A stretch of 47,188 nt of DNA from Rhodospirillales bacterium (GCA_002696645.1 NZSA01000054.1:1-47188), one strand, 5' to 3'. Shown: positions 3,584 to 46,882, numbered from the stretch's first letter. The notes: generated by a model from the sequence alone, not told the origin. A program made the numbers and translations.

Positions 3584-5317
3584 GATTAGAAATACAATTT
3601 GGGAAATCATACACTATATTCGAAAATTTTGGGGGAAATATGTCCAGAAAAGGAAAAACACAGAATCATTTAGCAAATAAGATTGAACTACGGCCCGGAG
3701 AAAACATCGGAAACAACTCCGCAGAGAATGATGATGAGTTTTTATTTTCGTGCTTTGTAGATCATCCAGCTCTTTCTGTAGTTGCGGATATTACTTCATC
3801 AAAGCACTTTGTATCGGCAAGAACTGGTGCAGGAAAGACTGCGATATTGAGAATGATATCTAAGAATAACACAAATGTAAGTGAGGTTGATTTACTGGAG
3901 TTATCACTTAGCTATGTCGCAAATTCTGATATTATACAGTTTCTTAGTTCGATTGGTGTTGATTTAGATTTATTTTTCCAGGTTCTTTGGAAACACATAT
4001 TCTGTATTGAATACATTAGATCAAGGTTTTCTGTCACGGATGCAAATAAGTCACGCAGTCTTTTTCGCAGAATTTTGGATACATTTGAAAGTGATGACAG
4101 GCGAAAATCGGCTCTAAAGTACTTGGCTGAATGGGAAAACAAATTCTTCATCACAATGGATGAAAATATTAAGGAGGTTACACAAAAAATAGAAAAACAA
4201 GTCGATACAAATCTTTCAGTTGATCTGGAAAAATTTAAATCAAAAGCAGGATACGCAAGGTCGTTGAGCCAGGAAAAGAAATCAGCCCTTGTCGCGCGCG
4301 CCAAGAAAATTGTCGATTCGGATCTTTTAGCGGATCTGGGAAAAGTTATGGACCTGCTTTCTACATTTGATAAAGAAGAAAAGTATAAGAAACAGAACCA
4401 CTATATATTAATTGACGGCATTGATGAAAAATGGGTTGATGAAACGATAAGGTACAAGCTCATTAGAGCATTAATTGAAAGTTTGAGGTCTTTTAGGAAG
4501 ATACAAAATCTAAAAATTATTGTGGCTATAAGAGCGGATGTTCTTGAGAGAGTAATTCAAGAGACAGATTTCTCCGGTGCTCAAAGAGAGAAGTATGATG
4601 ATTATTTCTTAAGAGTAAAATGGAATAAAGATCAAATGTTTGATCTGGTAAATAAAAGAATAAATTTTCTTTTTAGGAAGAAATACTCTTCAGAAAATGT
4701 ATATTATAGTGATATATTTGATCCAAAGGTTGGGAGTGTTGATTCTTTCTCTTATATATTGGATCGAACGTTATATAGGCCTAGAGATATAATATCTTAC
4801 CTAAATATATGCTTAAAATTGTGTGAAGGGAAAAGCAAGGTTTCCCAAACCGTTATTCGGAAGGCTGAAGAGGAGTATTCTCGAATTAGACTCCAGGCTT
4901 TAGTAGAGGAATGGAATACTGCACTACCTTATTTGCAGTTTGTTTTCAGTGCAATTAGATCTCGTGGAAATGCATTTCAAGAAAGTGACTTTTTTGACCA
5001 TACGTTTATTGACGAAATTGTTCTTTCCGTAGCCCAAGAAAATTATGAGCCTCGTGATCCGGTAAGTAAGTTGTCTAGGTCAAGTCTAACTCATGGAAAT
5101 GAAATACCTTATGAAGATATGTCAAAGCAAATCATATCGGACTTGTATCGAATTGGCGTTATCGGACTGAAGACAAATGTGAATCAAAGTTTCATTTTTT
5201 CTCATAAAGATATTGCGACGGTGCTTCCGGCCACAATATCGAAGGACACAAAGATAAGATTTCATCAAATGACGCGTATTGGATTGAACCTGTCAAACGT
5301 GAAATCGTAATATGATT
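3578..5317. repeat. 10-bp direct repeat TAATATGATT flanking ATPase gene A
   Basis: TAATATGATT occurs at 3578-3587, in the putative promoter, and again at 5308-5317, overlapping the TAA stop of the ATPase gene. The pair brackets the gene closely and could be a target-site duplication or recombination scar. The sequence is AT-rich, so chance cannot be excluded. Confidence 0.3.
3640..5310 (+). CDS. P-loop ATPase (Sll1717-like family), AT-rich solitary gene A
   Basis: A 556-aa soluble protein with a Walker A motif at residues 60-67 (ARTGAGKT) and a Walker B strand at about 255-262 (YILIDGID). A conserved sensor-like segment lies at 296-305 (AIRADVLERV) and an RPRDI motif at about 380-384. I relate it to the family labelled P-loop ATPase Sll1717 in public annotation; this is recognition, not a search. 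The region from residue 140 to 250 is charged and helical, while the C-terminal third has no motif I recognise. Codon use is very AT-rich compared with both neighbours, a sign of transfer. It stands alone and is convergent with rnpB. The start is supported by GGGGG four bases upstream. A role in defence is inference only. A second gene of the same family and the same length starts at 41621. Confidence 0.7.
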   Translation: MSRKGKTQNHLANKIELRPGENIGNNSAENDDEFLFSCFVDHPALSVVADITSSKHFVSARTGAGKTAILRMISKNNTNVSEVDLLELSLSYVANSDIIQFLSSIGVDLDLFFQVLWKHIFCIEYIRSRFSVTDANKSRSLFRRILDTFESDDRRKSALKYLAEWENKFFITMDENIKEVTQKIEKQVDTNLSVDLEKFKSKAGYARSLSQEKKSALVARAKKIVDSDLLADLGKVMDLLSTFDKEEKYKKQNHYILIDGIDEKWVDETIRYKLIRALIESLRSFRKIQNLKIIVAIRADVLERVIQETDFSGAQREKYDDYFLRVKWNKDQMFDLVNKRINFLFRKKYSSENVYYSDIFDPKVGSVDSFSYILDRTLYRPRDIISYLNICLKLCEGKSKVSQTVIRKAEEEYSRIRLQALVEEWNTALPYLQFVFSAIRSRGNAFQESDFFDHTFIDEIVLSVAQENYEPRDPVSKLSRSSLTHGNEIPYEDMSKQIISDLYRIGVIGLKTNVNQSFIFSHKDIATVLPATISKDTKIRFHQMTRIGLNLSNVKS

Positions 5318-5336
5318 TAGTGATCAATAATCAAAA

Positions 5337-5780
<444 letters not shown>

Positions 5781-7198: not shown

Positions 7199-9814
7199 GA
7201 ATTGATCCAGCAGCCGGTCGATATAGTCCAATTCCTCAGGCGGACGGGCGCGCTCTCCCGCGCGACGGCGTAATTCATCACGAATTTCCCGGGCTTTTTC
7301 CAGGCCGCCTTTATCAGGAACTTTCACCTGACCCTGCATGCTGCCCCGGAATGTATCACTGGCTTCGCGTCCAAAGGGGTCCATTGTCTGTTCGCCAGAC
7401 TGGCCGGGCACTTGCTGACCCATTCCCATTTGTTGTTCAAACCGTTCAATAAAGGCATTTCGCGCTGCATCGGCGGCCTCCTGCATCGCATCCAGTGCCT
7501 TGCCTTGTGACTCAACGGCTTCGCCGGGCCTGCCATCGCCCAATTGCTCAGTTGCCTCGCCCATGCCTTCATCCGCGCGGCCAAAGGGTTCTGGAATCTG
7601 CCCCATCATTTCGCCAAATTTGCGCATCACTTCACCCAATTGTCGGCGCAGGGCATCCTGCAGGACGGCATCTGCACTATCCTGCGCACGCTGTTGGTCG
7701 CCGGATTCTCCCCGCTGGCCCTGTTCAGCCTGGCCCTGGCTTTGCTGATTGCGCTGGGCCTGGTTTTGCTGTCCGGCCTGCCCCTGTTCCGGGTTGCTTT
7801 CGCCCCGGCGTTCCAGGTCGCGGCGATGGGTTCTGTCCATCAATTCGCGCTGGCTTTCCATGATATCTTTCATGGAATTCAGCATTTCCATGGCTTGCTG
7901 ATTCTGCGGGGACATTTGCTGCTGCATCCCTGCTTGCATGTTTTCCATCATATTACGCAGCTGTTCCAGCATCTGCTGGGCGCTTTCGGTCATGCCATTC
8001 TGCATCATGTCGCGCAATTGCTGCATCATGTCTTCAAGGTCGCGCTGAGAAATGACATTTTCGCCGGGGGCCATTTCGGGGGGCTGTTCACCCTCGGCAA
8101 GGTTCTGGCGCATCTGGTCTGCCATGGCCTGCATGTAATCCTGCATGGCCTGCTGCAGTTCATCCATCAATTGGTCCAGTTCGGCCGCATCGGCGCCATT
8201 CTGGAGGGCGTCCATCAGGGCCTGTTGTGCCTCACGCAAGCGCTGCAGGGCCAGGGATACGCCACCATCTTCCAGATACAGCGCCGTTTTCCATAATAAT
8301 TCGATCACAGACGCAATGGCCTGTGGCTCAGGGGCGGCACCGGTGCGGCGATGGGGCGTCAGGGCGCGCACTGCCTGACGCAGCGCCATGAAAACCGTAA
8401 CCTTGTCATCAAATGTGTTATGTTCCCACGACAAGGCATCCAGCGCGTCTGAAACGGCCCGATAATTTTGTATCGGATTCCAGGCCAGTTCACGCCGCAA
8501 GTCGATAATGATCTTAGCCACTGGGTGGTTGAACTCCCGCGCGGGCAGGATCAAGGTCACGGGCTCGGATCGACCCTCCTGGCCCAGGGCGTCGGTTGCC
8601 ACCAGGGTCAGGCGCACTTCTCCGCCGGCCCAGGGATGGGCGGTATAGTCCCGGTAGGCGCGGCGTTTGGTGCCGTATTTGCTGGGGTCCGGGACGGGCA
8701 GTTGGGTGATGATCTTCATTTCCTCATTCCCCTGAGCACTGCTTTGCGCAGAGCCCGCAAGCCTGTCCGCGCGCTCTATCTCCGCCCTTAAGGAGAGAAC
8801 GCCAAAGTCATCGCTGACCGTATGGGTGATGGTCAGGGCGCGCTGAACACTGGCAATCGGGGGTTCTGGCAGGGTGACAACGGGGGGCGCATCCGGCACG
8901 GCGCGAATTTCCCAGGAGGCAACGGTTTCACCCTCAGACTGAATGGAAAATGTGCCGGACTTTAGAATTTCATGCTCCAGCGCCACGGCATTCTGGGCAA
9001 ATTGCGCCATTGGTTTTGGACCCTGCGGCGTTATCAGGGTCGCCCCGTCCGGGACGCCGCTGACCTGAACCACCAGGCGGGACCCGACCGGGGTGCTGTG
9101 TTCATCGCCCTGCATTGCTGTTGGGATCGTATCGGTCGTGTCAGGCGATTGTTTCTTGCTGCTGGACATAAAAAGCGGGGGCAGACCGGTATAGTCCGGC
9201 GGCGTCAGCCAGGCATCAATGCCAACCGTCAAGGTCGGTCCGCTGGTGCCGATATTGGGGACCAGTGCAGTCCGCAGGCGCTGAATACTCTCCCCGCCCG
9301 CAGCGATCAGCGCGATGATCAGGAAGAATGGCGCAATCAGGCGCAGGGCGCGGGGATCGCGCCGTGCCAATTGGGGATCCGGGGCGCCCACCGACAAGCT
9401 GCCGATTCGTTGACGCAGGCGCGCCTGATGCGCCTGCCACAGGGCCAGTTGAATTGGATTATCGCTGCTGGGACGATCCGCCAGACTTTCCAGTGGGCGG
9501 TGATCCAGTTTGTTGACCCGTTCGACCCGACGACGCGCGGCTTCATACCGGGGCAGGTGAAACCGTCGATAGCCCTGAACCATCAGGCCAGCGAAAAGGA
9601 TGGCCGATACTGCCAGGACGGTCGCATGCAGCCAGGGAGCAAGGTCTGGCAGAAGTCCGGTGATTGCGATGGCAAGAAACAGGATCAGGACGCTGACAGG
9701 TTTCCAGAAGGCAACTTCCAGCGCCTCCCAGATCAAAACCGCGCGGGAGAGACCGATGGGCATTTCCATACCCGTCGCGTCTTTTTGGCCCCCCCGAGCC
9801 GAGTGATCTGTCAT
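7196..9814 (-). CDS. TIGR02302-like membrane protein (DUF4175 family)
   Basis: An 872-aa alphaproteobacterial protein found downstream of lysA. I recognise it as the TIGR02302/DUF4175 type. It has hydrophobic segments near residues 35-75, a third near 160, a central region with beta-rich extracytoplasmic character, and a long Gln/Met/Glu-rich coiled-coil-like part (about 550-790). The C-terminus is basic and helical. The function is not established. The ATG at 9814 is chosen because GGAG lies 7 bases upstream and because it leaves 17 bases after the lysA stop. A longer frame starting at 9868 would overlap lysA. It probably forms an operon with argH, the lipoprotein gene and lysA. Its TAG stop is formed by the palindromic element. 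Confidence 0.82.
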   Translation of the reverse strand: MTDHSARGGQKDATGMEMPIGLSRAVLIWEALEVAFWKPVSVLILFLAIAITGLLPDLAPWLHATVLAVSAILFAGLMVQGYRRFHLPRYEAARRRVERVNKLDHRPLESLADRPSSDNPIQLALWQAHQARLRQRIGSLSVGAPDPQLARRDPRALRLIAPFFLIIALIAAGGESIQRLRTALVPNIGTSGPTLTVGIDAWLTPPDYTGLPPLFMSSSKKQSPDTTDTIPTAMQGDEHSTPVGSRLVVQVSGVPDGATLITPQGPKPMAQFAQNAVALEHEILKSGTFSIQSEGETVASWEIRAVPDAPPVVTLPEPPIASVQRALTITHTVSDDFGVLSLRAEIERADRLAGSAQSSAQGNEEMKIITQLPVPDPSKYGTKRRAYRDYTAHPWAGGEVRLTLVATDALGQEGRSEPVTLILPAREFNHPVAKIIIDLRRELAWNPIQNYRAVSDALDALSWEHNTFDDKVTVFMALRQAVRALTPHRRTGAAPEPQAIASVIELLWKTALYLEDGGVSLALQRLREAQQALMDALQNGADAAELDQLMDELQQAMQDYMQAMADQMRQNLAEGEQPPEMAPGENVISQRDLEDMMQQLRDMMQNGMTESAQQMLEQLRNMMENMQAGMQQQMSPQNQQAMEMLNSMKDIMESQRELMDRTHRRDLERRGESNPEQGQAGQQNQAQRNQQSQGQAEQGQRGESGDQQRAQDSADAVLQDALRRQLGEVMRKFGEMMGQIPEPFGRADEGMGEATEQLGDGRPGEAVESQGKALDAMQEAADAARNAFIERFEQQMGMGQQVPGQSGEQTMDPFGREASDTFRGSMQGQVKVPDKGGLEKAREIRDELRRRAGERARPPEELDYIDRLLDQF

Positions 9815-37116: not shown

Positions 37117-37908
37117 CTAGGCTGCTGCCGTCTTCTGGTCGCCCTTAAACTGCAAGGCCGTCAAATAAGCCTTCACGGTGGCATCGAAGCCCATCCACAA
37201 CGCATCTGCTGTGAAGGCATGACCGATGGAAACTTCGTCCAGCCGGGGCAGGGCGCGGATCAGGTTCGGCAGATTCTCTGTTGTCAGGTCATGTCCGGCA
37301 TTGATCAACATGCCGGCATCCAGCGCCGCCTGGGCCGATCTGGCATAGCGGGCCAATAACGCGGCCTCGTCCGCCGTGCCAAAGGCATCAGCATAGGGGC
37401 CGGTATAGAGTTCGACGCGGTCGGCCCCCAGGGCGGCGGCTTTTTGCATGGCCGGGGCCGGATCGTCGGTCGCATCCATGAACAGCGCGACACGACAGCC
37501 AAGGCCTTTTAAGGTGGCGATTGTCTGCTTCAGCCGGTCAGCCTCGCCAAACACATCCCAGCCACTGTCAGACGTGGCAGCATCGGGGGAGTCCGGGACC
37601 AGCGTTGCCTGATCCGGGCGGACCTTGTTGATGATGGCCAGGAAATCATCGAAGGGATTGCCTTCCACATTAAATTCCACCCCGCGCGCGGCCCATCCTT
37701 CATCGCGGATCATCGCGGCGATGTTCATCACATCGCTCTTTCGGATATGACGCTCATCCGGGCGCGGATGCACGGTCAGGCCATGGGCACCCGCCCGCAG
37801 CACGGTACGGCCCGCCTCAATGGGATCGGGATAGCCGACATGACGCTGGTTGCGCAGCAGGGCCACCTTGTTCAGGTTCACAGACAGTTTTGTTTCAACG
37901 CGTTTCAT
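37117..37908 (-). CDS. pdxJ: Pyridoxine 5'-phosphate synthase
   Basis: PdxJ condenses 1-deoxyxylulose 5-phosphate with 3-amino-2-oxopropyl phosphate, the last step of de novo vitamin B6 synthesis. The 263-aa TIM-barrel protein has the typical LSVNLNKVALLRNQR start, GLTVHPRPDERHI near 43-55, VEFNVEGNP near 77-85 and AGHDLTTENL near 205-214. The residues of the phosphate and metal sites seen in the family are present. It is isolated from its frequent neighbours recO and acpS. Confidence 0.96.
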   Translation of the reverse strand: MKRVETKLSVNLNKVALLRNQRHVGYPDPIEAGRTVLRAGAHGLTVHPRPDERHIRKSDVMNIAAMIRDEGWAARGVEFNVEGNPFDDFLAIINKVRPDQATLVPDSPDAATSDSGWDVFGEADRLKQTIATLKGLGCRVALFMDATDDPAPAMQKAAALGADRVELYTGPYADAFGTADEAALLARYARSAQAALDAGMLINAGHDLTTENLPNLIRALPRLDEVSIGHAFTADALWMGFDATVKAYLTALQFKGDQKTAAA

Positions 37909-38028
37909 ACCAGAAATCCCGAACTTTGCTTAATTGGCTTTAGATATAGGATGTTCACAGCACTTTGATAGGGCCATTTTGATGAAATCGTGCTGGACCT
38001 TTCGCAGGGATTGGTTGATAAGCCGCAG

Positions 38029-38928
38029 ATGGTTTTGTCCGATAATATAAAAGGCGCGTCCTTGATGGCGGCCAGCATGGCGGCGTTTATCGTCAATGAT
38101 ACATTGATGAAACTCGCCTATGATTTCGTTTCCATGTATCAGGCGATGTTGCTCCGGGGATTGGCCGCGACCGCAATGATCGTGGTGATTGCAGCCTGGC
38201 GACGCGAGTTGAAAGTCTCCGTTCCAAAGCGGGAGCGCGGCATTCTGGCCCTGCGTGTTCTGGGGGAGGTCGGGTCCACCACCGCCTTTCTGACGGCCCT
38301 GTTGCATATGCCGTTGGCCAATCTGACAGCCATCATGCAGACCATGCCGCTGGCCGTGACTCTGGCCGCCGCCGTGTTCCTGAAGGAGCCCCTGGGCTGG
38401 CGGCGCTGGTCGGCGATTGCGGTTGGATTCTGTGGTGTTCTGATGATCGTGCGGCCGGGGTCTGACGGGTTCAACAGCTTTTCCATATTGGCGCTGGTTG
38501 CGGTTGCCTTTGTCGTGCTGCGGGATATTTCGACCCGGCGGCTGAACGCCCAGATACCCTCAATCTTCGTTTCCCTGCTGACCTCCGTCGCGGTCACGGT
38601 TCTGGCGGCGGTCATGGCCCCGACGATGGAATGGCGCCCCTTAAGCGGGCACGCGCTTGCCTTGTTGGGCACGGCGGCCGTCTGTGTGATTTTCGGCTAT
38701 ATCTTCAGTGTGAAGGCCATGCGCGTTGGCGAAATCGCCTTCGTGGCCCCGTTCCGCTATACGATCATGATCTGGGCCATCCTGCTGGGGATCTTCGTCT
38801 TCAACGATTACCCCAGCCAATGGACCCTGATCGGTGCCGCCATCATCGTTGGCACCGGCGTCTATTCCTTCTACCGCGAGCGCAAACGTCGCCTGCTGGC
38901 CGCCAAAGTCGCACCGCGCAATCCTTAA
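38029..38928 (+). CDS. EamA/DMT-family transporter
   Basis: A 299-aa protein with ten hydrophobic segments in two EamA repeats. The start SDNIKGASLMAASMAAFIVNDTLMK and the LLRGLAAT segment are typical of alphaproteobacterial members. The ATG at 38029 is preferred because family proteins begin a few residues before SDN; a GTG at 37990 would add 13 residues, and neither start has a strong Shine-Dalgarno. It ends 15 bp before the stop of the convergent DMGDH-like gene. Substrate unknown. Confidence 0.85.
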   Translation: MVLSDNIKGASLMAASMAAFIVNDTLMKLAYDFVSMYQAMLLRGLAATAMIVVIAAWRRELKVSVPKRERGILALRVLGEVGSTTAFLTALLHMPLANLTAIMQTMPLAVTLAAAVFLKEPLGWRRWSAIAVGFCGVLMIVRPGSDGFNSFSILALVAVAFVVLRDISTRRLNAQIPSIFVSLLTSVAVTVLAAVMAPTMEWRPLSGHALALLGTAAVCVIFGYIFSVKAMRVGEIAFVAPFRYTIMIWAILLGIFVFNDYPSQWTLIGAAIIVGTGVYSFYRERKRRLLAAKVAPRNP

Positions 38929-38943
38929 GGCGGGCGGGCGGGG

Positions 38944-41373
38944 TTACCCCCGCATCCGCTCTGCCTTCGGGTCGAACAGGGCTTCGGTGATCAGGGTGGC
39001 CGTATGGGGCACCCCTAAGATTTCGATCTCGAACTTGCCGCCCTCGATAATGCGTTCCTTGGGGATCATGCCAATCGCGACGGACTTGCGGGCCCAATGG
39101 GCGTAGCCGCCTGATGTGACATAGCCGATGACCTTGCCGTCCTGCCAGATCGGCTCGTCTGCGACACAATCAGCAGATTCCGGGCTGTCTGGCACATCCA
39201 CGACGAAGGTTGCCAGATGGTTGGCAGGTGGATTTTCGCGCTCTGCAACGGCAACATCCCGACCAATGAAGTCATTCTTCTTGAAATTGCAGAAACGGTC
39301 CAAGCCGGTTTCTGCCGGGGTGAAGTCCGGGCGGAATTCCCGCAGCCAGGAACCGAAACTCTTTTCCAGCCGCAGCGACATCATGGCCCGCATGCCAAAG
39401 GGTTTCAGGCCCAGATCGGCCCCGGCACTCTTTAAGGCTTCATACAGCGCAACCTGATGATCGCGATGGACATAGATTTCATAGCCCAGATCACCGGTAT
39501 AGGTGACGCGGTTGACCAGGGCCGGGATCGGTCCGATCTCGATGGCTGTGCAGCTCAGGAAGGGCATGGCGGTATTGGACGTGTCGCTGTCGGTGACGCG
39601 GGACAGCAAGTCGCGGGCGTTCGGCCCGGCAATCTGAAAGCCGATCCGCTCCAGCGACACATTGCGCAGGCTGACCGATCCGTCTTCGGGCAGGTGCTGT
39701 TGGAACCAGCGCATATGGAAGGACTGGGCAGAGAAGGAGGCGGTCAATTGCACCTCTTCTTCCCCCAGGCGCGCCATGGTGAAATCCCCGATGATCTTGC
39801 CCTTGGTCGACAGCATCGCGGTCAGCGCGATTTTGCCGACGGCAGGCACGCGGTTGGTCATGATATGGTTCAGCCAGGCCACGGCACCCGTGCCAGTGAC
39901 CAGATACTTCCCGAAATTGTGGATCTCATTGATGCCCACCGCTTCCCGCACGGCGCGGCATTCGGCCCCGATGGCGTCAAAGGCACTGGAACGGCGGAAG
40001 CTTGGCGTTTCAAACAGCGGTTCGCCTTCGGGTGCGAAATAGTTCACATGCTCCATGCCATAGCCAGAGCCGAAGACCGCGCGTTCTGCCTTCCACAGGC
40101 CATAGGCGGGTGTGGTTTGTAGCGGGCGACCGACCGGCAGTTCTTCATTGGGGTAGGAGATGGAGAAGCGCCGCTGATAATTTTCCGTCACTTTCATGCG
40201 GGTATAGGGCCGGGTGCAGTAATCGCCAAAGCGCGCGACATCCATGGCATAGACGTTGCGGCTGGGCTCGCCCTCTACCATCCATTCCGCCAGCGTCAGG
40301 CCGACGCCGCCGCCCTGGCTGAAGCCTGCCATCACGGCACAAGCGGACCAGTAATTGCGCAGGCCCGGCACTGGACCGACCAGTGGGTTGCCGTCTGGCG
40401 CGAAGGTGAAGGGACCATTGATCACAGTCTTGATCCCCGCCGTGCCCAGCACGGGATAGCGCTTGAACGCCGCGTCCAGTGGCTCTGAAATGCGGTCCAG
40501 ATTGTTGTTCAGCAATTCATGGCCGAAATCCCACGGTGTGCCATTGACGGCCCAGGGGTCACAGTCCTGCTCATAAATCCCGATCACCAGCCCGCGGCCT
40601 TCCTGGCGCAGATAGGTCTCCCCCGCCGGGTCCATGACATGGGGCAATTCGGTCGGGTGGTTATAGACTTCGGGAATGTCGTCGGTGACCAGATATTGGT
40701 GTTCCATCGGGTGCAGCGGCAGGAAGACGCCCGCCATCTGCCCGACCTCGCGCGCCCACAGGCCCGCTGCGTTGATCAGGTGTTCGCAGGTGACCGTGCC
40801 CTGTTCAGTGACCACATCCCAGCCGCCATCGGCGCGGGGATTGGTTTCCAGCACGCGGTTGCGCAGCACGATTTCTGCGCCGGCCATGCGGGCGGCCTTG
40901 GCATAGGCATGGGTCGTGCCCGACGGGTCCAGATGTCCGTCCAGCGGATCATACAGCCCGCCCAACACGCCCTCGACATTGGTAATCGGCGACAGTTTTT
41001 GGATTTCCTCCGGCCCGACGATTTCGGTGTCCAGACCCATATAGCGATGCTTGGCACGCTCCGCCTTCAGGTAATCCAGCCGGTCGCGGGTCGTGGCAAT
41101 CGTGACCCCGCCGACATGGTGCAGGCCACAGGACATGCCCGTGATCTCTTCCAATTCCTTATACAGGCGGATCGTATATCCCTGCAGGGCGGCCATATTG
41201 GTATCGGCATTCAGTGTATGAAACCCGCCCGCCGCATGCCAGGTCGACCCGGAAGTCAGTTCAGACCGCTCAATCAGCAACAGGTCCGTCCAGCCCAGCT
41301 TGGTTAAGTGATACAGCACCGAACACCCAACAACACCCCCACCAATAACGACAACCCGGACATGCGATTTCAT
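38944..41373 (-). CDS. FAD-dependent oxidoreductase / aminomethyltransferase (DMGDH or sarcosine dehydrogenase type)
   Basis: This 809-aa protein joins a D-amino-acid-oxidase-like FAD domain (1 to about 370) to a bridging region and a GcvT-like tetrahydrofolate domain (about 430-800). The N-terminus has GGGVVGCS for FAD, and STWHAAGGF near 44-52 contains the histidine that carries covalent FAD in relatives. Enzymes of this layout demethylate dimethylglycine, sarcosine or related N-methyl compounds and pass the one-carbon unit to tetrahydrofolate. Many marine alphaproteobacteria carry several paralogues, so the exact substrate is open. It is convergent with a DMT transporter gene and starts just before the AT-rich island. 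Confidence 0.9.
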   Translation of the reverse strand: MKSHVRVVVIGGGVVGCSVLYHLTKLGWTDLLLIERSELTSGSTWHAAGGFHTLNADTNMAALQGYTIRLYKELEEITGMSCGLHHVGGVTIATTRDRLDYLKAERAKHRYMGLDTEIVGPEEIQKLSPITNVEGVLGGLYDPLDGHLDPSGTTHAYAKAARMAGAEIVLRNRVLETNPRADGGWDVVTEQGTVTCEHLINAAGLWAREVGQMAGVFLPLHPMEHQYLVTDDIPEVYNHPTELPHVMDPAGETYLRQEGRGLVIGIYEQDCDPWAVNGTPWDFGHELLNNNLDRISEPLDAAFKRYPVLGTAGIKTVINGPFTFAPDGNPLVGPVPGLRNYWSACAVMAGFSQGGGVGLTLAEWMVEGEPSRNVYAMDVARFGDYCTRPYTRMKVTENYQRRFSISYPNEELPVGRPLQTTPAYGLWKAERAVFGSGYGMEHVNYFAPEGEPLFETPSFRRSSAFDAIGAECRAVREAVGINEIHNFGKYLVTGTGAVAWLNHIMTNRVPAVGKIALTAMLSTKGKIIGDFTMARLGEEEVQLTASFSAQSFHMRWFQQHLPEDGSVSLRNVSLERIGFQIAGPNARDLLSRVTDSDTSNTAMPFLSCTAIEIGPIPALVNRVTYTGDLGYEIYVHRDHQVALYEALKSAGADLGLKPFGMRAMMSLRLEKSFGSWLREFRPDFTPAETGLDRFCNFKKNDFIGRDVAVAERENPPANHLATFVVDVPDSPESADCVADEPIWQDGKVIGYVTSGGYAHWARKSVAIGMIPKERIIEGGKFEIEILGVPHTATLITEALFDPKAERMRG

Positions 41374-41620
41374 GGAAAACCACCCTTTGCAACAGCGTCA
41401 GAAATTCAAAATCCGCCGCACTCTGCATCGGTTTTTCAGGGATGAAAAGGGAGTCGCAAATGTGATATTTGAGGGGTCGCTGTCAGGAAAACCAGCATGA
41501 AGCTCTTTGCACGGAATCCGTATATTGAAACCTTAAGCTAAAAATATGTATATTTTAGATTTTATTTATTATAAAAAGCCATTAAAGGTGATGTCATAAA
41601 AAGACTTAAAGGGTTTCATA
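41374..41620. other. Transition from core sequence to AT-rich island
   Basis: The first 140 bp have core-like composition and should carry the promoter of the DMGDH-like gene. From about 41520 the sequence turns strongly AT-rich. It contains a near-perfect palindrome, CTAAAAATA to TATTTTAG, at 41538-41558, about 60 bp before the start of ATPase gene B, possibly a regulatory site. CGCTGTCAG at 41478-41486 recurs at 43614. No gene is seen. Confidence 0.45.
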
Positions 41621-43291
41621 ATGCCACGAAAACAAAAGAATTTTAAATTTCCCAAAAGAAATAGACAAGCTGTGCATCTGCCGGAGAATCGGATTCAAAT
41701 TTCTGAAATGTATTTCGGATCTATTGATGCAACAGATGAGCTAGATGCGAATAGCAAAGATATTAGGAATAGATTTTTTGAGACATTTTTTATGCCCGAG
41801 GGTGTAAATATTGAAGATTTTATAAATGGAAATAAATATTTTATTTATGGATTAAAAGGAACAGGAAAAACTTCGTTTTTAAGATATATTCAGGAATATG
41901 TCCTAAGACAAAATGAATCAAATATTGAACCGGAGCTTTTTCGTTTTAGATCAGATTTCCCACGAGAAATCTATGATGACGTTCGAAAGGCCTTTCTCAA
42001 TGGTAAGGAGATAAAATCTGAGGATCGATCATCCATATACAGAGATTTGGATTATGAAGATGTCTGGATTTACATAATACTAAAAAGAATTTCGACTATA
42101 ATAAAAGATCCAAAAAACAAATTATATGTAGATGATAAACACCTTTCTGAATTTTTAAAATATGCACAATCAATTACGCAAAAAGAAGAATCTAGTAATA
42201 TATTTAGGTTTTTACCTAAAATAAAAGATGGGTCGGTGCGCCTTAGTTACAATCCTAAAATAGATTTAAAGTTTGAATTTGATGATCATGAAAATAACTT
42301 AATAAGTTTCCATAAATATTCAAAAAATCTTGAGGAATTATTTTCTAAGTTGACACCTGTATCAGAAAGTAAATTTTATCTTTGCTTTGATGAAATTGAT
42401 CCGCGTACAGGTGCTGGAGTTCTTTTTGAGATAGATTGTATACTTATTAGAGATCTTATTGTTGCAATAAAACGATTGAATAGGGTGCATTCAATTCAAT
42501 CTAGAAGCGTATATTTTTTGGCCGCAATTCGATCAGAAGTATTAGAAAAAGTTAAGTATCTCGGTAAAGAAATACAAAAGTCATTGGAGCAATTTGGTCT
42601 TTGTATGAACTGGGGCGATCATGGAAAAATAGATATCCATCATCCACTTGTTAAAATGATCTGCAAAAAAATTTCTTATTCTGAAAAAAATTGCGGTGTA
42701 TTGACTGCAGAAATTGGAAATATTGAGACATATATTTGGCCAAGATATTTTAGAAAATCTAAATATTATCAATTAAATCCAAAATTTATATTAGATATGT
42801 CTTGGCATAGACCGCGTGATATTGTTAGATTACTTTCAACTTGTAGGGATATTTCTGGTAATTCCAGAGAAATATCTGAGGGATTAATTTCAAGAGCACG
42901 AAAGCGCTATTCGAATCTAAGCTGGAGTGAGATTAGTGAGCATCTAACAATTTCCATTGATCCCTTCTCTTTAGAGGGTGTTGATAAGGTGCTAACAGGA
43001 ATACAAAAAGAATTCACACAGGAGGAGTTTTCTGAGATTCTTTTCCAAAGAGCTTTAATTGATACATCTACTGAGCGTTTAAGTAGAAGATACAAATCAG
43101 CTGATATATTGTACTTTTTGTATAAGGCTGGCGCTGTGGGTACTAGAAAGGGTTCATTTGAAAGATATGTGTTTCGAGGAGATTCTGATCCAGATTTTTC
43201 AGGGATTTTTTGTATCCACAACGGACTATATTCACATTTCTCAATACGATTTTCATCCCGAGATTATTCGAAAAGAAGTTCTAAAGATTAA
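41621..43291 (+). CDS. P-loop ATPase (Sll1717-like family), AT-rich solitary gene B
   Basis: A 556-aa soluble protein. Walker A is at 77-84 (GLKGTGKT), Walker B at about 252-260 (FYLCFDEID), a sensor-like AIRSEVLEKV at 302-311 and HRPRDI at 396-401. The same four elements occur in the same order in the ATPase at 3640, with similar distances, although most of the remaining sequence differs. The N-terminal 20 residues are basic (PRKQKNFKFPKRNR). AAAGGG lies about 7 bases before the ATG. Codon use is extremely AT-rich, unlike the neighbours, a mark of horizontal transfer. It stands alone on its strand between the DMGDH-like gene and the oxidoreductase remnant. A role in mobile-element biology or phage defence is inference; no partner effector is fused or adjacent on the same strand. 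Confidence 0.7.
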   Translation: MPRKQKNFKFPKRNRQAVHLPENRIQISEMYFGSIDATDELDANSKDIRNRFFETFFMPEGVNIEDFINGNKYFIYGLKGTGKTSFLRYIQEYVLRQNESNIEPELFRFRSDFPREIYDDVRKAFLNGKEIKSEDRSSIYRDLDYEDVWIYIILKRISTIIKDPKNKLYVDDKHLSEFLKYAQSITQKEESSNIFRFLPKIKDGSVRLSYNPKIDLKFEFDDHENNLISFHKYSKNLEELFSKLTPVSESKFYLCFDEIDPRTGAGVLFEIDCILIRDLIVAIKRLNRVHSIQSRSVYFLAAIRSEVLEKVKYLGKEIQKSLEQFGLCMNWGDHGKIDIHHPLVKMICKKISYSEKNCGVLTAEIGNIETYIWPRYFRKSKYYQLNPKFILDMSWHRPRDIVRLLSTCRDISGNSREISEGLISRARKRYSNLSWSEISEHLTISIDPFSLEGVDKVLTGIQKEFTQEEFSEILFQRALIDTSTERLSRRYKSADILYFLYKAGAVGTRKGSFERYVFRGDSDPDFSGIFCIHNGLYSHFSIRFSSRDYSKRSSKD

Positions 43292-43330
43292 TTTTTAATA
43301 GGGGTGAAAACTATCTCATCCAGGCGTTTT

Positions 43331-43613
43331 TCACCGCATCAAAAACCGCACCACCTTCCGCGACCGATCCGAAAACAGGTTGGGTGTGAAATAGCTGCCG
43401 GCGGTGCGTTTGGTGACTTCGGATAGGGTGGGGTAGGGGGCGATCAGGCTGGCGAGGGTGCTCATTTTCTGGCGGTTTTGTACGGCCATGATCCAGGGGA
43501 GCAACAGGTCCCCGGCATGGGGTCCGACGAGGGTGCAGCCCAGCGCCCGGCCCTTCGTGTCGACGATTGCTTTGACCAGCCCGTCGGTGCGACGTTCGGC
43601 CTGGGCGCGGTCG
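43331..43613 (-). pseudogene. 3' remnant of an FAD/disulfide oxidoreductase gene (second copy of the end of the gene at 45449)
   Basis: These 283 bp match 45457-45735, the last part of the intact oxidoreductase gene, at about 90% of bases by eye. The frame is intact for about 94 codons and encodes RAQAERRTDG, the PYPTLSEVTKR segment and an end KVVRFLMR followed by TGA. There is no start codon or upstream part. The intact copy ends in LMKLI instead. At the protein level about eight changes are seen, mostly conservative, so this end was under selection until recently or was brought in from a related strain. The hipBA operon lies between the two copies. The hairpin GGTGAAAA...TTTTCACC (43303-43335) just after its stop may be the old terminator. 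Confidence 0.85.
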
Positions 43614-43639
43614 CGCTGTCAGCAAAAATAGCAGTAAAA

Positions 43640-44950
43640 TTATTCCAAGCTGATCAATTGAGTTCTGAAAGTATTTTGCAGCCTGGATGCATCCCCTGAA
43701 GGCACGCCCGCAATTTTTGCATGTTGGGGCCATGCGCTGACCGCAGCGGCAATTTCTGCCAGGATTCTTTTTATTTTTGTTATTTTTATTCCGGCCATTT
43801 TTGCGAATGCCAGAAAGTCTTCCGGTGTGAAATCATCGCGTTTCCCATTCAGGCTCATCTGATGTTGGCTGGTCCACGCGCCATCCGGGTTATAGGAATA
43901 AGCGATGTCAAAGGCGGGCGCTAGGCGCCATGTCCCCGCGCGATCCATCAGGAAGGCGATGTTCTTGACGTGATCGTCTTGGTTTCGGGTGATGACGTTA
44001 AAGAGGGCGCGGCGATATTGCTCTTCAATGCTGGGCATCGGAATACTGAGTAATTTTAGAGTTTGGATTGCTTGTTCGTAAGAGTAGGCACCGGCCATAT
44101 TGAAATCGAAATGTTGCAGGGCGCATAGGCTCTGCATGTGAATTTTTTCACCTGATGTGGTTCGGTCAAATCGTTTGGTCATGAAATGCGCCCGCCCACC
44201 TTCCTCATGCAGGCGGCATGGCGTCATTTTGATTCCTGCCTGCCGGGCCATCAGGAAATAGGCATATTCAATACGCCCAAAACCTTGCGGATCCGCGATT
44301 TCCTTATCACGATTGCCGTCGATACCGTCGAATTTCATAATCCAGTAACCGAATTCCGGATCGTTGGGGATCTGACCCGATCGGAATTCACCAGTCTTTT
44401 CATTCCAGGCAAGTATTGCTTTCGCCCGGGCTCCGCCTGCGGACGTGCCGACACGCAGGATGTCTTCAATCGCGGATTGGTCATCAATGCCGTCGAATCG
44501 GCCGTTCAGGGTTCGGCGCGTGTCTAGGGCCTGATTGGCCAACTCAACCAGTGCTTCGATTTGGACTGTTCTGCTGGTGTTCGCGACGGAGCCTCGGCTT
44601 GGCTGAAACTCTAACGCGCCCATGCCTCTGGACCCGGTGTAGCACAAGCGATCAACGGGATTGAAACTGGCGGCAGTTCGGTTCTCGCGCGCCAGCCAGG
44701 CATCGATCAGGGCGTTCCCGAATTTATCCGGCAAGCTGTCCGCCAGCAATCCAGGCAGGCCTTTGAAGGTTTGTTGGTTCAGGTTGGGGAACTCATAGGG
44801 GGCGTCGCGCAAGGGCATGGTCAGGGGCGCGACCTCAATCCCACTTTTGGCAAAAGCTCCTGTATATTGGAAAACGCCGATCTGACGATCCTCCAACCAG
44901 GAGACAGCGCCGATCTCTGATCCCCATAGTAAAACCCGTGCGTCGGTCAT
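43640..44950 (-). CDS. hipA: HipA-family type II toxin (serine/threonine kinase)
   Basis: HipA toxins phosphorylate translation factors, such as glutamyl-tRNA synthetase in E. coli, and can induce persistence. The 436-aa protein is full length. It shows the N-terminal HipA subdomain (PLRDAPYEFPN, then GLLADSLPDKFGN near 67-79), a glycine-rich loop VGTSAGGARAKA at 167-178, FMTKRFDR at 256-263, the catalytic RNQDDHVKN at 322-330 and PAFDIAYS at 345-352, the equivalent of the kinase DFG region. All expected catalytic residues are present. Its ATG overlaps the hipB stop by 4 bases, so the pair is translationally coupled. It lies between two copies of the oxidoreductase 3' end and is therefore mobile by context. 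Confidence 0.93.
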   Translation of the reverse strand: MTDARVLLWGSEIGAVSWLEDRQIGVFQYTGAFAKSGIEVAPLTMPLRDAPYEFPNLNQQTFKGLPGLLADSLPDKFGNALIDAWLARENRTAASFNPVDRLCYTGSRGMGALEFQPSRGSVANTSRTVQIEALVELANQALDTRRTLNGRFDGIDDQSAIEDILRVGTSAGGARAKAILAWNEKTGEFRSGQIPNDPEFGYWIMKFDGIDGNRDKEIADPQGFGRIEYAYFLMARQAGIKMTPCRLHEEGGRAHFMTKRFDRTTSGEKIHMQSLCALQHFDFNMAGAYSYEQAIQTLKLLSIPMPSIEEQYRRALFNVITRNQDDHVKNIAFLMDRAGTWRLAPAFDIAYSYNPDGAWTSQHQMSLNGKRDDFTPEDFLAFAKMAGIKITKIKRILAEIAAAVSAWPQHAKIAGVPSGDASRLQNTFRTQLISLE

Positions 44951-45309
44951 TTTGTCGACCCGTCATCAGCCCAGGTCCAGGGCTCAGCCTCGGTTGGCTT
45001 TCGGCGCGCCCGCTGGCGCTGTTTCCCCTTGAATTGGACTCTTTCGATTGGGCGCACTGTCGGATCAGGAATGAAGTTCTCTAAATGATGGTGAAGATTC
45101 AGGGCTAACATCACGCGAATGATGGTATCGAAGGAAACCCCGCCTTCGCCTGTTGCAAGGCGGGTTAGGGTGCGCAAGGAAATACTGGCCCGTTTCGCCA
45201 GTTCGGATTGGTTCATATTCTGGCTGAGCCGAACCGCTTCCAGTCGGGCGCAGAGATAGGTTTCAATCTCTGCACTTGAGGCGATTTTAAAGTCAATTTT
45301 TTGCGTCAT
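44947..45309 (-). CDS. hipB: HipB-like antitoxin, XRE-type helix-turn-helix protein
   Basis: A 120-aa protein with an XRE/Cro helix-turn-helix (about 20-75: RLSQNMNQSELAKRASISLRT). A basic C-terminal tail follows (GKQRQRARRK) that could reach the toxin or DNA. It precedes hipA with a 4-base overlap, the usual antitoxin-first order. HipB binds HipA, blocks its activity and represses the operon. Three dyad sites upstream (45338-45452) are the probable operators. The protein is longer than E. coli HipB (88 aa) because of the tail. Confidence 0.88.
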   Translation of the reverse strand: MTQKIDFKIASSAEIETYLCARLEAVRLSQNMNQSELAKRASISLRTLTRLATGEGGVSFDTIIRVMLALNLHHHLENFIPDPTVRPIERVQFKGKQRQRARRKPTEAEPWTWADDGSTK

Positions 45310-45337
45310 TTTTCGCGCTTTATAGACGTATTAAGAG

Positions 45338-45452
45338 ATAACACGCGAATTATAGCGTATAATAAGGTTATACAATACTAAAAAATATAACACGCAAAAT
45401 ATCGCGTTTTATAGCGCTAATATGATATAAAAAGTAACATTTCGCGTGTTAT
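45338..45452 (-). promoter_or_regulatory. hipBA promoter with three HipB-type operators
   Basis: Three 26-bp dyads have the form ATAACACGC - 8 bases - GCGTGTTAT or a near variant: 45338-45363 (right arm GCGTATAAT), 45387-45412 (right arm GCGTTTTAT) and 45427-45452 (left arm ATAAAAAGT, right arm perfect). E. coli HipB operators also have two short arms around an 8-base spacer. On the minus strand a TATAAT box (45349-45354) lies inside the first dyad, about 40 bases before the hipB start, so binding there would block the promoter. The third dyad overlaps the stop codon of the oxidoreductase gene. Confidence 0.7.
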
Positions 45453-46882
45453 ATTAATTTCATCAAAAACCGTACCACTTTCCGCGTGCGCTCCGAAAAC
45501 AGGCTGGGTGTGAAATAGCTGCCGGCTGTGCGTTTGGTGACTTCGGATAGGGTGGGATAGGGGGCGATCAAGCTGGCGAGGGTGCTCATTTTCTGGCGGT
45601 TTTGCACGGCCATGATCCAGGGGAGGAGCAGGTCGCCTGCATGGGCGCCGACGATTGTGCAGCCCAGGGCGCGGCCTTTTTTGTCAACGATTGCTTTCAT
45701 CAGCCCGTCGGTGCGGCGTTCGGCCTGTGCGCGGTCGTTTTCGTCGAAATGCCAGCGCAGGACCTGATAGTTTCCGGCCCCCAATTCCTTCTCCGCCTGC
45801 GCTTCGGTCAGGCCGATCTGGGCGAGTTCGGGGTCGGTATAGGTGACCCAGGGGACGGCCCGATGGTCAACCTTGGTCCAGAACATCTTAAACAGCATCT
45901 GGCGGATGACGATGCCCGCGTCATAGCCCGCCATATGGGTAAATTGCAGGCCGCCCGTCACGTCGCCAATCGCAAAGATGCGGCGGTTGCTGGTTTTCAG
46001 ATGGTCATCGACGGTGACCGCACCGCGCTCTGTCTTAACGCCTGCCTTGTCCAGGTCCAGACCGGCGATATTGGCGCGGCGTCCTACGGCGACCAGCAGA
46101 TGACTGCCGGTAATAACCTCCTGCTTGCCGTCTTTTTCCACCGTGGCGGAAATGCCTGTATCGGTGGGCGCGACGCTTTTCAGGGCGGTTTCCTCGCGGA
46201 TGTCCAGGCCTTCGGCGCGCAGGCGGTCCAAAACCAGGGCGGTGGCTTCGGGATCATCCTTGGCCAGGGCCTTTGCCATTTCGATGACGGTGACCTTACA
46301 GCCCAGGCGGCGATGGGCCTGGGCCATCTCCATCCCGATGGGCCCGCCGCCGATGACCAGCAGGTGGTCAATGGGCTGGTCATTGTCGAAGACGGTTTCA
46401 TTGGTCCAATAAGGCGTCTTGTCCAGCCCGTCGATTGGGGGAACAAAGGGGGTGGAGCCGGTGGCGATGACAAAGTATTTCGCCTGGATTTTTGTATCGC
46501 CTGCCTGAACTTCCGCCGGACTGGTGAAGCGGCCATGTTGCTGGATCACGGTGACGCCTAGGCTTTCGAAGCGCTCAACGGAATCATTGGGTTCGATTGC
46601 GGCGATCACGCCGTTGACATGCGCGCGGACTTTTTTCCAGTCGACCTTGGGGGGGACGGGCTCGATCCCAAAAATGTCAGAATGGCGCTGGACATGGGCG
46701 GCATGACCGGCGGCCAGCAATGCCTTGGATGGAACACAGCCAAAATTCAGGCAATCGCCGCCCATCAGTCCCTTTTCGATCAGAACCACGCGGGCACCCA
46801 TCTGGGCGGCACCGGCCGCGACGCTTAACCCGCCAGAGCCTGCGCCGATGATGCAGATATCGGTCTTGATCGTGCCCGTCAT
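45449..46882 (-). CDS. FAD-dependent pyridine nucleotide-disulfide oxidoreductase (mercuric reductase/LPD-like)
   Basis: A 477-aa flavoprotein. The N-terminal FAD site is IIGAGSGGLSVA at 11-22, the redox-active disulfide is in CLNFGCVPSK near 44-53, the NAD(P)H site GGGPIGMEMA lies near 178-187 and the second FAD site FAIGDVTGG near 313-321. The C-terminal dimerisation domain has APYPTLSE instead of the HxHPTLxE of dihydrolipoamide dehydrogenase, so the catalytic histidine is missing. It also lacks the C-terminal cysteine pair of true MerA. The substrate is therefore uncertain. Its last residues (LI) and stop overlap sequence linked to the hipBA operators, and a second copy of its 3' end lies beyond hipBA. 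Confidence 0.88.
   Translation of the reverse strand: MTGTIKTDICIIGAGSGGLSVAAGAAQMGARVVLIEKGLMGGDCLNFGCVPSKALLAAGHAAHVQRHSDIFGIEPVPPKVDWKKVRAHVNGVIAAIEPNDSVERFESLGVTVIQQHGRFTSPAEVQAGDTKIQAKYFVIATGSTPFVPPIDGLDKTPYWTNETVFDNDQPIDHLLVIGGGPIGMEMAQAHRRLGCKVTVIEMAKALAKDDPEATALVLDRLRAEGLDIREETALKSVAPTDTGISATVEKDGKQEVITGSHLLVAVGRRANIAGLDLDKAGVKTERGAVTVDDHLKTSNRRIFAIGDVTGGLQFTHMAGYDAGIVIRQMLFKMFWTKVDHRAVPWVTYTDPELAQIGLTEAQAEKELGAGNYQVLRWHFDENDRAQAERRTDGLMKAIVDKKGRALGCTIVGAHAGDLLLPWIMAVQNRQKMSTLASLIAPYPTLSEVTKRTAGSYFTPSLFSERTRKVVRFLMKLI

Follow-up and report, generated by a model that had tools for sequence, protein, structure and literature searches.

A hipBA operon at the 3′ end of an oxidoreductase gene in a Rhodospirillales bacterium, with a stranded copy of the gene end on its far side

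In the window analysed, a 47,188-nucleotide stretch of DNA from a Rhodospirillales bacterium (GCA_002696645.1 NZSA01000054.1:1-47188; genome G000), a hipBA operon was found inserted between an intact oxidoreductase gene and a further copy of its 3′ end. The best explanation of this arrangement, which we consider on balance probable, is the entry of a gene end together with hipBA by a single crossover and without a recombinase. Along the minus strand the oxidoreductase gene is followed by hipB, hipA and a startless oxidoreductase 3′ end. The first-pass annotation had noticed that the last ~280 bp of the oxidoreductase gene are present twice in direct orientation, about 90% identical, on both sides of hipBA; the repeat search gave 277 nt at 90% identity (43337–43613 and 45461–45737), one copy on each side of the operon, and the same duplication was seen again in the congener G005. 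This pair is not a chance match, since no other direct repeat in the 47-kb window reaches 100 bp. The features of the locus are the following.

45449–46882, minus strand: intact FAD/pyridine nucleotide-disulphide oxidoreductase gene, the target gene, 477 aa (Pfam PF07992/PF02852, NCBIfam PRK06370-like)
45461–45737, minus strand: 3′ end of the intact gene, repeat copy 1 (repeat search, alignment)
45449–45460, minus strand: K-L-I-stop, non-native final codons of the intact gene, which run on into the hipB upstream region and are common to G005 (alignment)
45310–45455, minus strand: AT-rich region (29% GC) upstream of hipB, in which CGCG/TATAA motifs occur repeatedly and also inverted (repeat search)
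44947–45309, minus strand: hipB antitoxin gene (HTH_3, Pfam)
43640–44950, minus strand: hipA toxin kinase gene, full length, 436 aa (HipA_C 3e-50, Couple_hipA 1e-20)
43614–43628, minus strand: junction spacer TTTTTGCTGACAGCG between hipA and the remnant, matching TTTTTCCTGACAGCG, which lies just past the end of the gene where the site is empty (G002)
43332–43613, minus strand: stranded 3′ remnant of the oxidoreductase gene, repeat copy 2, without a start codon (repeat search, alignment)
41495–43331, plus strand: AT-rich (31.5% GC) 1.8-kb insert that is not in G002, where 41494 adjoins 43332
41621–43291, plus strand: Sll1717-family P-loop ATPase gene in the AT-rich insert (NF047389, E 1.6e-63)
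41478–41497, minus strand: a further occurrence of the same CTGACAGCG motif, beyond the ATPase insert; in the G002-type haplotype it originally flanked the gene end

The PF13657 (HipA N-terminal coupling) and PF07804 (HipA_C kinase) domains are carried by one ORF and cover most of its 436 aa, and the HipA catalytic motifs NxDDHxKN (as NQDDHVKN) and PAFDI are intact when aligned with solved HipA-family kinases. The hipB gene lies directly upstream of hipA in one operon, with a 4-bp overlap. From these families HipA is predicted to be a kinase toxin and HipB a repressor antitoxin, and the CGCG/TATAA motifs at 45310–45455 are likely candidates for the HipB operators and promoter. The HipA proteins of the window and of G005 share 98% amino acid identity, and no flanking repeats were found at the other HipA copies of G000 and G005.

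Orthologues of the oxidoreductase gene are present in all five congeners. Among the five congeners searched, the hipBA of the window was found in G005 only, at the same place and with the same remnant and junction. An assembly artefact was ruled out by the same structure and junction in G005 (L033), where the hipA–remnant junction (7658–7690) is that of the window apart from one 2-bp and one 7-bp indel. The remnant starts 27 bp beyond the stop codon of hipA, and its other limit was moved out to 43332 by homology with the gene ends of relatives. G002 (L034) represents the empty site: it lacks hipBA and has one gene end, which passes directly into the flank of the following gene, encoding a DAO/GcvT-type oxidoreductase. 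In G003, G004 and G001 the site is occupied by other genes, judged by eye to include small ones resembling the PAS-domain gene that follows the remnant in G005.

The ATPase insert, located at exactly the same gene end, is an event separate from hipBA; it was not found in G002, G005 or any of 97 relatives, and is thus carried by one of the 98 genomes searched. A second, unrelated insert at one gene end would fit a degraded site-specific integrative element whose attachment site was the gene 3′ end and which carried a replacement end and has lost its integrase. The layout also has a likeness to icd-type elements, which insert at a gene 3′ end and restore that end. Such an element is nevertheless extremely unlikely: no recombinase family was detected among the tested ORFs (35–47 kb) or the tested neighbours in three of the comparable hipBA loci described below (L102, L139 and L107), and the repeats are long (91–396 bp), variable in length and derived from four unrelated genes, with no shared core site noticed.

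Evidence for single-crossover entry came from the two borders of the insert. The spacer TTTTTGCTGACAGCG agrees with the post-stop sequence TTTTTCCTGACAGCG of G002 at 14 of 15 positions (0 of 300 shuffles), and in G005 the spacer sequence and the remnant overlap by CGACC, so that the hipA–remnant junction is host-derived and contains a microhomology within the 3–10 bp range, plainest in G005. The G005 remnant ends L-M-R-W-V-S stop, which is the native type, as in G003 and G004, and continues into the native PAS gene of the genus. The intact genes of G000 and G005 both finish K-L-I stop, from which the native ends (G002, G003, G004 and the G005 remnant) differ. Because of this common K-L-I-stop, the native end and neighbour of the G005 remnant and the spacer matching the G002 post-stop sequence, it can be stated that the insert supplied at least part of the end of the intact gene. 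To this extent the earlier proposal is borne out: the insertion kept the gene whole, gave it a new end and stranded the old one. Most simply, hipBA would have lain at the gene stop in the donor, and CGACC would be the point at which the incoming fragment was joined to the beginning of the duplicated end; the window and G005 might also have been joined separately, each at this microhomology. At L102 and L107 no likeness of the junction to downstream sequence was seen.

The CGACC microhomology and the downstream-type spacer would likewise be in agreement with homology-facilitated illegitimate recombination. Here a linear fragment of conspecific DNA, made up of the gene end, hipBA and the start of the downstream sequence, would have paired by homology on the gene side and been end-joined at CGACC inside the resident gene. 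Junctions of 3–10 bp are typical of this process (PMC3240628), and the same model was put forward for T6SS effector–immunity modules displacing old ends (PMC5361080). However, it typically deletes recipient DNA, whereas recipient sequence is duplicated here, duplications of this kind in E. coli were ascribed to circularisation and a single crossover (PMC3240628), and its product would be nearly indistinguishable from that of the best explanation; we regard it as quite improbable. The same junction fits the join of a tandem duplication of gene end and hipBA by microhomology, the second hipBA being lost afterwards, but this history would need an extra step to restore the native sequence past the G005 remnant, no trace of a second hipBA was found, and its probability is very low.

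On the first-pass reading the ~280-bp end of the intact gene would be foreign. Four copies were compared, the intact ends of G000 (a0) and G005 (a5) and their remnants (r0 and r5). All combinations differ by 6–11% (89–94% identity), the 2:2 site splits among the four are 2/2/2 and the AU test rejected no tested topology; the copies form a star and are on the whole closer to one another than to congener sequences. This star speaks neither for nor against a foreign origin of the ~280-bp end in the window, and the clear signature of replacement is that of G441 tlyA, an independent case given below. Since the copies differ as much as the orthologous gene bodies of G000 and G005 (91% identity), the insertion is about as old as the split of these two lineages. 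A recent tandem duplication was ruled out, the structure being common to G005 and the divergence equal to that of orthologues; the earlier argument from 10% divergence is right in excluding a recent event, but only since the event is as old as the G000/G005 split.

The order tlyA, hipBA, tlyA remnant was found in both G460 and G441, and the other searched members of the genus have a single tlyA, with no close hipBA relative reported beside it. In the upstream part of G441 tlyA, 154 of the 189 informative sites go with the hipBA-free sister G435 (102:22, 28:6 and 24:7), and in its last 78 bp 18 of 19 go with the hipBA-bearing G460 (18:1). Within these 78 bp the identity of G441 to G435 drops from 89% to 72% and that to G460 increases from 74% to 94% (Fisher p < 1e-4 each), and the G441 remnant leans to G435 (9:4). 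The tail of G441 tlyA was swapped for that of another species, and the pattern named in the first-pass annotation as support for replacement is thus seen at a different gene. The last 78 bp of the intact tlyA end of G460 show a similar drop in identity to its sister G604, from 91% to 77%.

These results bear on a local insertion with long target duplication, in which ~280 bp of the resident end would have been copied in place without an incoming end. Copies equally close to each other and apart from all relatives had been named beforehand as the mark of such a local origin, and the window locus comes near to this pattern, its four copies being nearly equidistant and generally nearer to one another than to congener sequences. 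Duplications of this type, of the order of 100 bp, are known for restriction–modification (RM) genes (PMC3874152, PMC3031569). Local duplication leaves unexplained, however, both the host-derived sequence at the hipA–remnant junction and the foreign last 78 bp of G441 tlyA, and we consider it unlikely.

Divergence at third codon positions between G000 and G005 was 4.8% for hipA, 8.3% for hipB, 10% for the DAO-type gene and 21% for the oxidoreductase, and 24–42% for the other aligned genes between 20 and 36.5 kb. The low divergence of hipBA against these values of 21% and 24–42% indicates that hipBA moved between the G000 and G005 lineages after their split, by homologous exchange. The hipB upstream region is less similar (89% identity between G000 and G005), suggesting that both lineages may already have had hipBA at this place before the exchange. 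Comparison of 37117–41373 with L033 gave 10–15% third-position divergence for the DAO/GcvT-type oxidoreductase and its neighbours, versus 24–42% elsewhere, which suggests that the region adjoining hipBA was also recently exchanged between G000 and G005.

Insertion at a gene end recurs independently at different genes of other bacteria. Direct repeats of at least 60 bp closely flanked hipBA at 5 of 70 usable loci of the same HipA clade in other genomes, and at 3 of 18 in a second hipBA set, window and G005 being counted in neither. Control intervals from the same loci gave 2 of 1930 when sliding and 2 of 289 when non-overlapping (Fisher p = 0.004, or 0.014 without the array-like L086), and the enrichment of flanking repeats at hipBA loci is modest. 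Clear gene ends were recognised among the repeats of four loci.

L102: Ldh_2 gene, hipB, hipA and 3′ remnant; 396 bp, 80%, remnant frameshifted
L139: tlyA-like gene, hipB, hipA and 3′ remnant; 264 bp, 87%
L140: tlyA-like gene, hipB, hipA and 3′ remnant; 91 bp, 78%
L107: esterase gene in a mirrored layout; repeats 5244–5480 and 7447–7683

At L107 the operon has the intact esterase gene next to hipA, in convergent orientation, and the 3′ remnant upstream of hipB. Plasmid relatives of the L102 gene were too remote. The repeats of L058, L072, L104 and L124 were matched to no gene end; those of L124 look non-coding. L104 (Omnitrophota) carries 135-bp direct repeats of 96% identity around hipBA (5320–5454 and 8266–8400), and at L086 hipBA lies amid several diverged direct repeats of 114–249 bp, possibly an integron-like cassette array. 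Among control loci (other HipA_C subfamilies, C5-methylases and RecA) flanking repeats were found at 1 of 30 in each set, and none of these repeats was recognised as a gene end; the HipA_C match comes from a genome where two hipA genes are neighbours, the flanks in that set are short, and the methylase set, intended as a positive control, showed no excess of flanking repeats.

In the single-crossover mechanism that we prefer, the hipBA operon would arrive on a DNA fragment also carrying the 3′ end of the target gene. The fragment would be circularised or end-joined, and a single RecA-type crossover with the resident gene, within the shared 3′ end, would produce in one step a whole gene with the final codons of the fragment, followed by hipB–hipA and by the displaced 3′ end of the resident as the remnant. 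Addiction to the toxin would then fix the insert. The circular intermediate, the dependence on RecA and this fixation are steps that we infer. Against the mechanism stand the window ends, which are not assignable to different lineages, and the share of hipBA loci with flanking repeats, just 5 of 70, with gene ends not clear at some of the five; a donor genome with the bare gene–hipBA arrangement was not found. The general claim is held at moderate confidence because the enrichment statistics are modest and the window locus is equivocal. More tentatively, hipBA operons of this HipA clade might be recombinase-free mobile units with a copy of the 3′ end of their target gene. Acting on the flanking gene-end repeats, host homologous recombination would excise them, transfer them between species and re-insert them at one fixed gene, whose tail would be replaced each time while the gene stays unbroken.

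The movement of small chromosomal toxin–antitoxin pairs free of transposase or integrase is poorly understood. The insertion described here offers an empty site, an older common structure, an identifiable junction and a parallel tail replacement from another species, and the proposed route would leave the target gene unharmed, would require host recombination only and could be traced in any genome by the stranded gene-end remnant.

As a type II toxin–antitoxin system the pair of the window is ordinary, being an operon of a HipA kinase and an HTH antitoxin with the antitoxin first and the genes overlapping; what distinguishes it is the mode of insertion alone. DNA with one-sided homology introduced into E. 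coli gave mostly partial duplications of the homologous end beside the insert (109–950 bp), explained by circularisation and a single crossover (PMC3240628), but that system is a laboratory construct, whereas the hipBA case is natural and deduced from sequence. The displaced 3′ ends of T6SS/Rhs loci, attributed to homology-facilitated illegitimate recombination (PMC5361080), are similar in that a module is anchored by one-sided homology and an old 3′ piece is stranded downstream; in those loci the stranded piece, an immunity gene or a toxin tip, belongs to the system itself, and at hipBA it is a housekeeping gene, unrelated to the operon, whose end is stranded. A literature search, most subscription journals being outside its reach, found no paper describing this layout for hipBA. 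Spread of a toxin–antitoxin pair without a visible recombinase had been called unusual in the first-pass annotation, and it appears less so in view of RM genes, which are described as inserting with long target duplication and without a recombinase (Nobusato et al. 2000; Furuta et al. 2010; via PMC3031569, PMC1643837 and PMC3874152). The two have in common an addiction-type pair, no visible recombinase, long direct target repeats of variable length and an empty site in a relative. At hipBA, 277-bp repeats at both ends, the G002 empty site and the lack of a transposase or recombinase (Pfam, tested ORFs) agree with target duplication; on a derivation of both copies from the recipient the window copies split evenly (2/2/2), and G441 tlyA contradicts it. 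The hipBA cases differ from RM insertion in that the cargo is HipBA, the targets are gene 3′ ends in the solid cases, the repeats are 10–20% diverged and one case (G441) has a demonstrably foreign end, so that the "duplication" is really a replacement of the target end.
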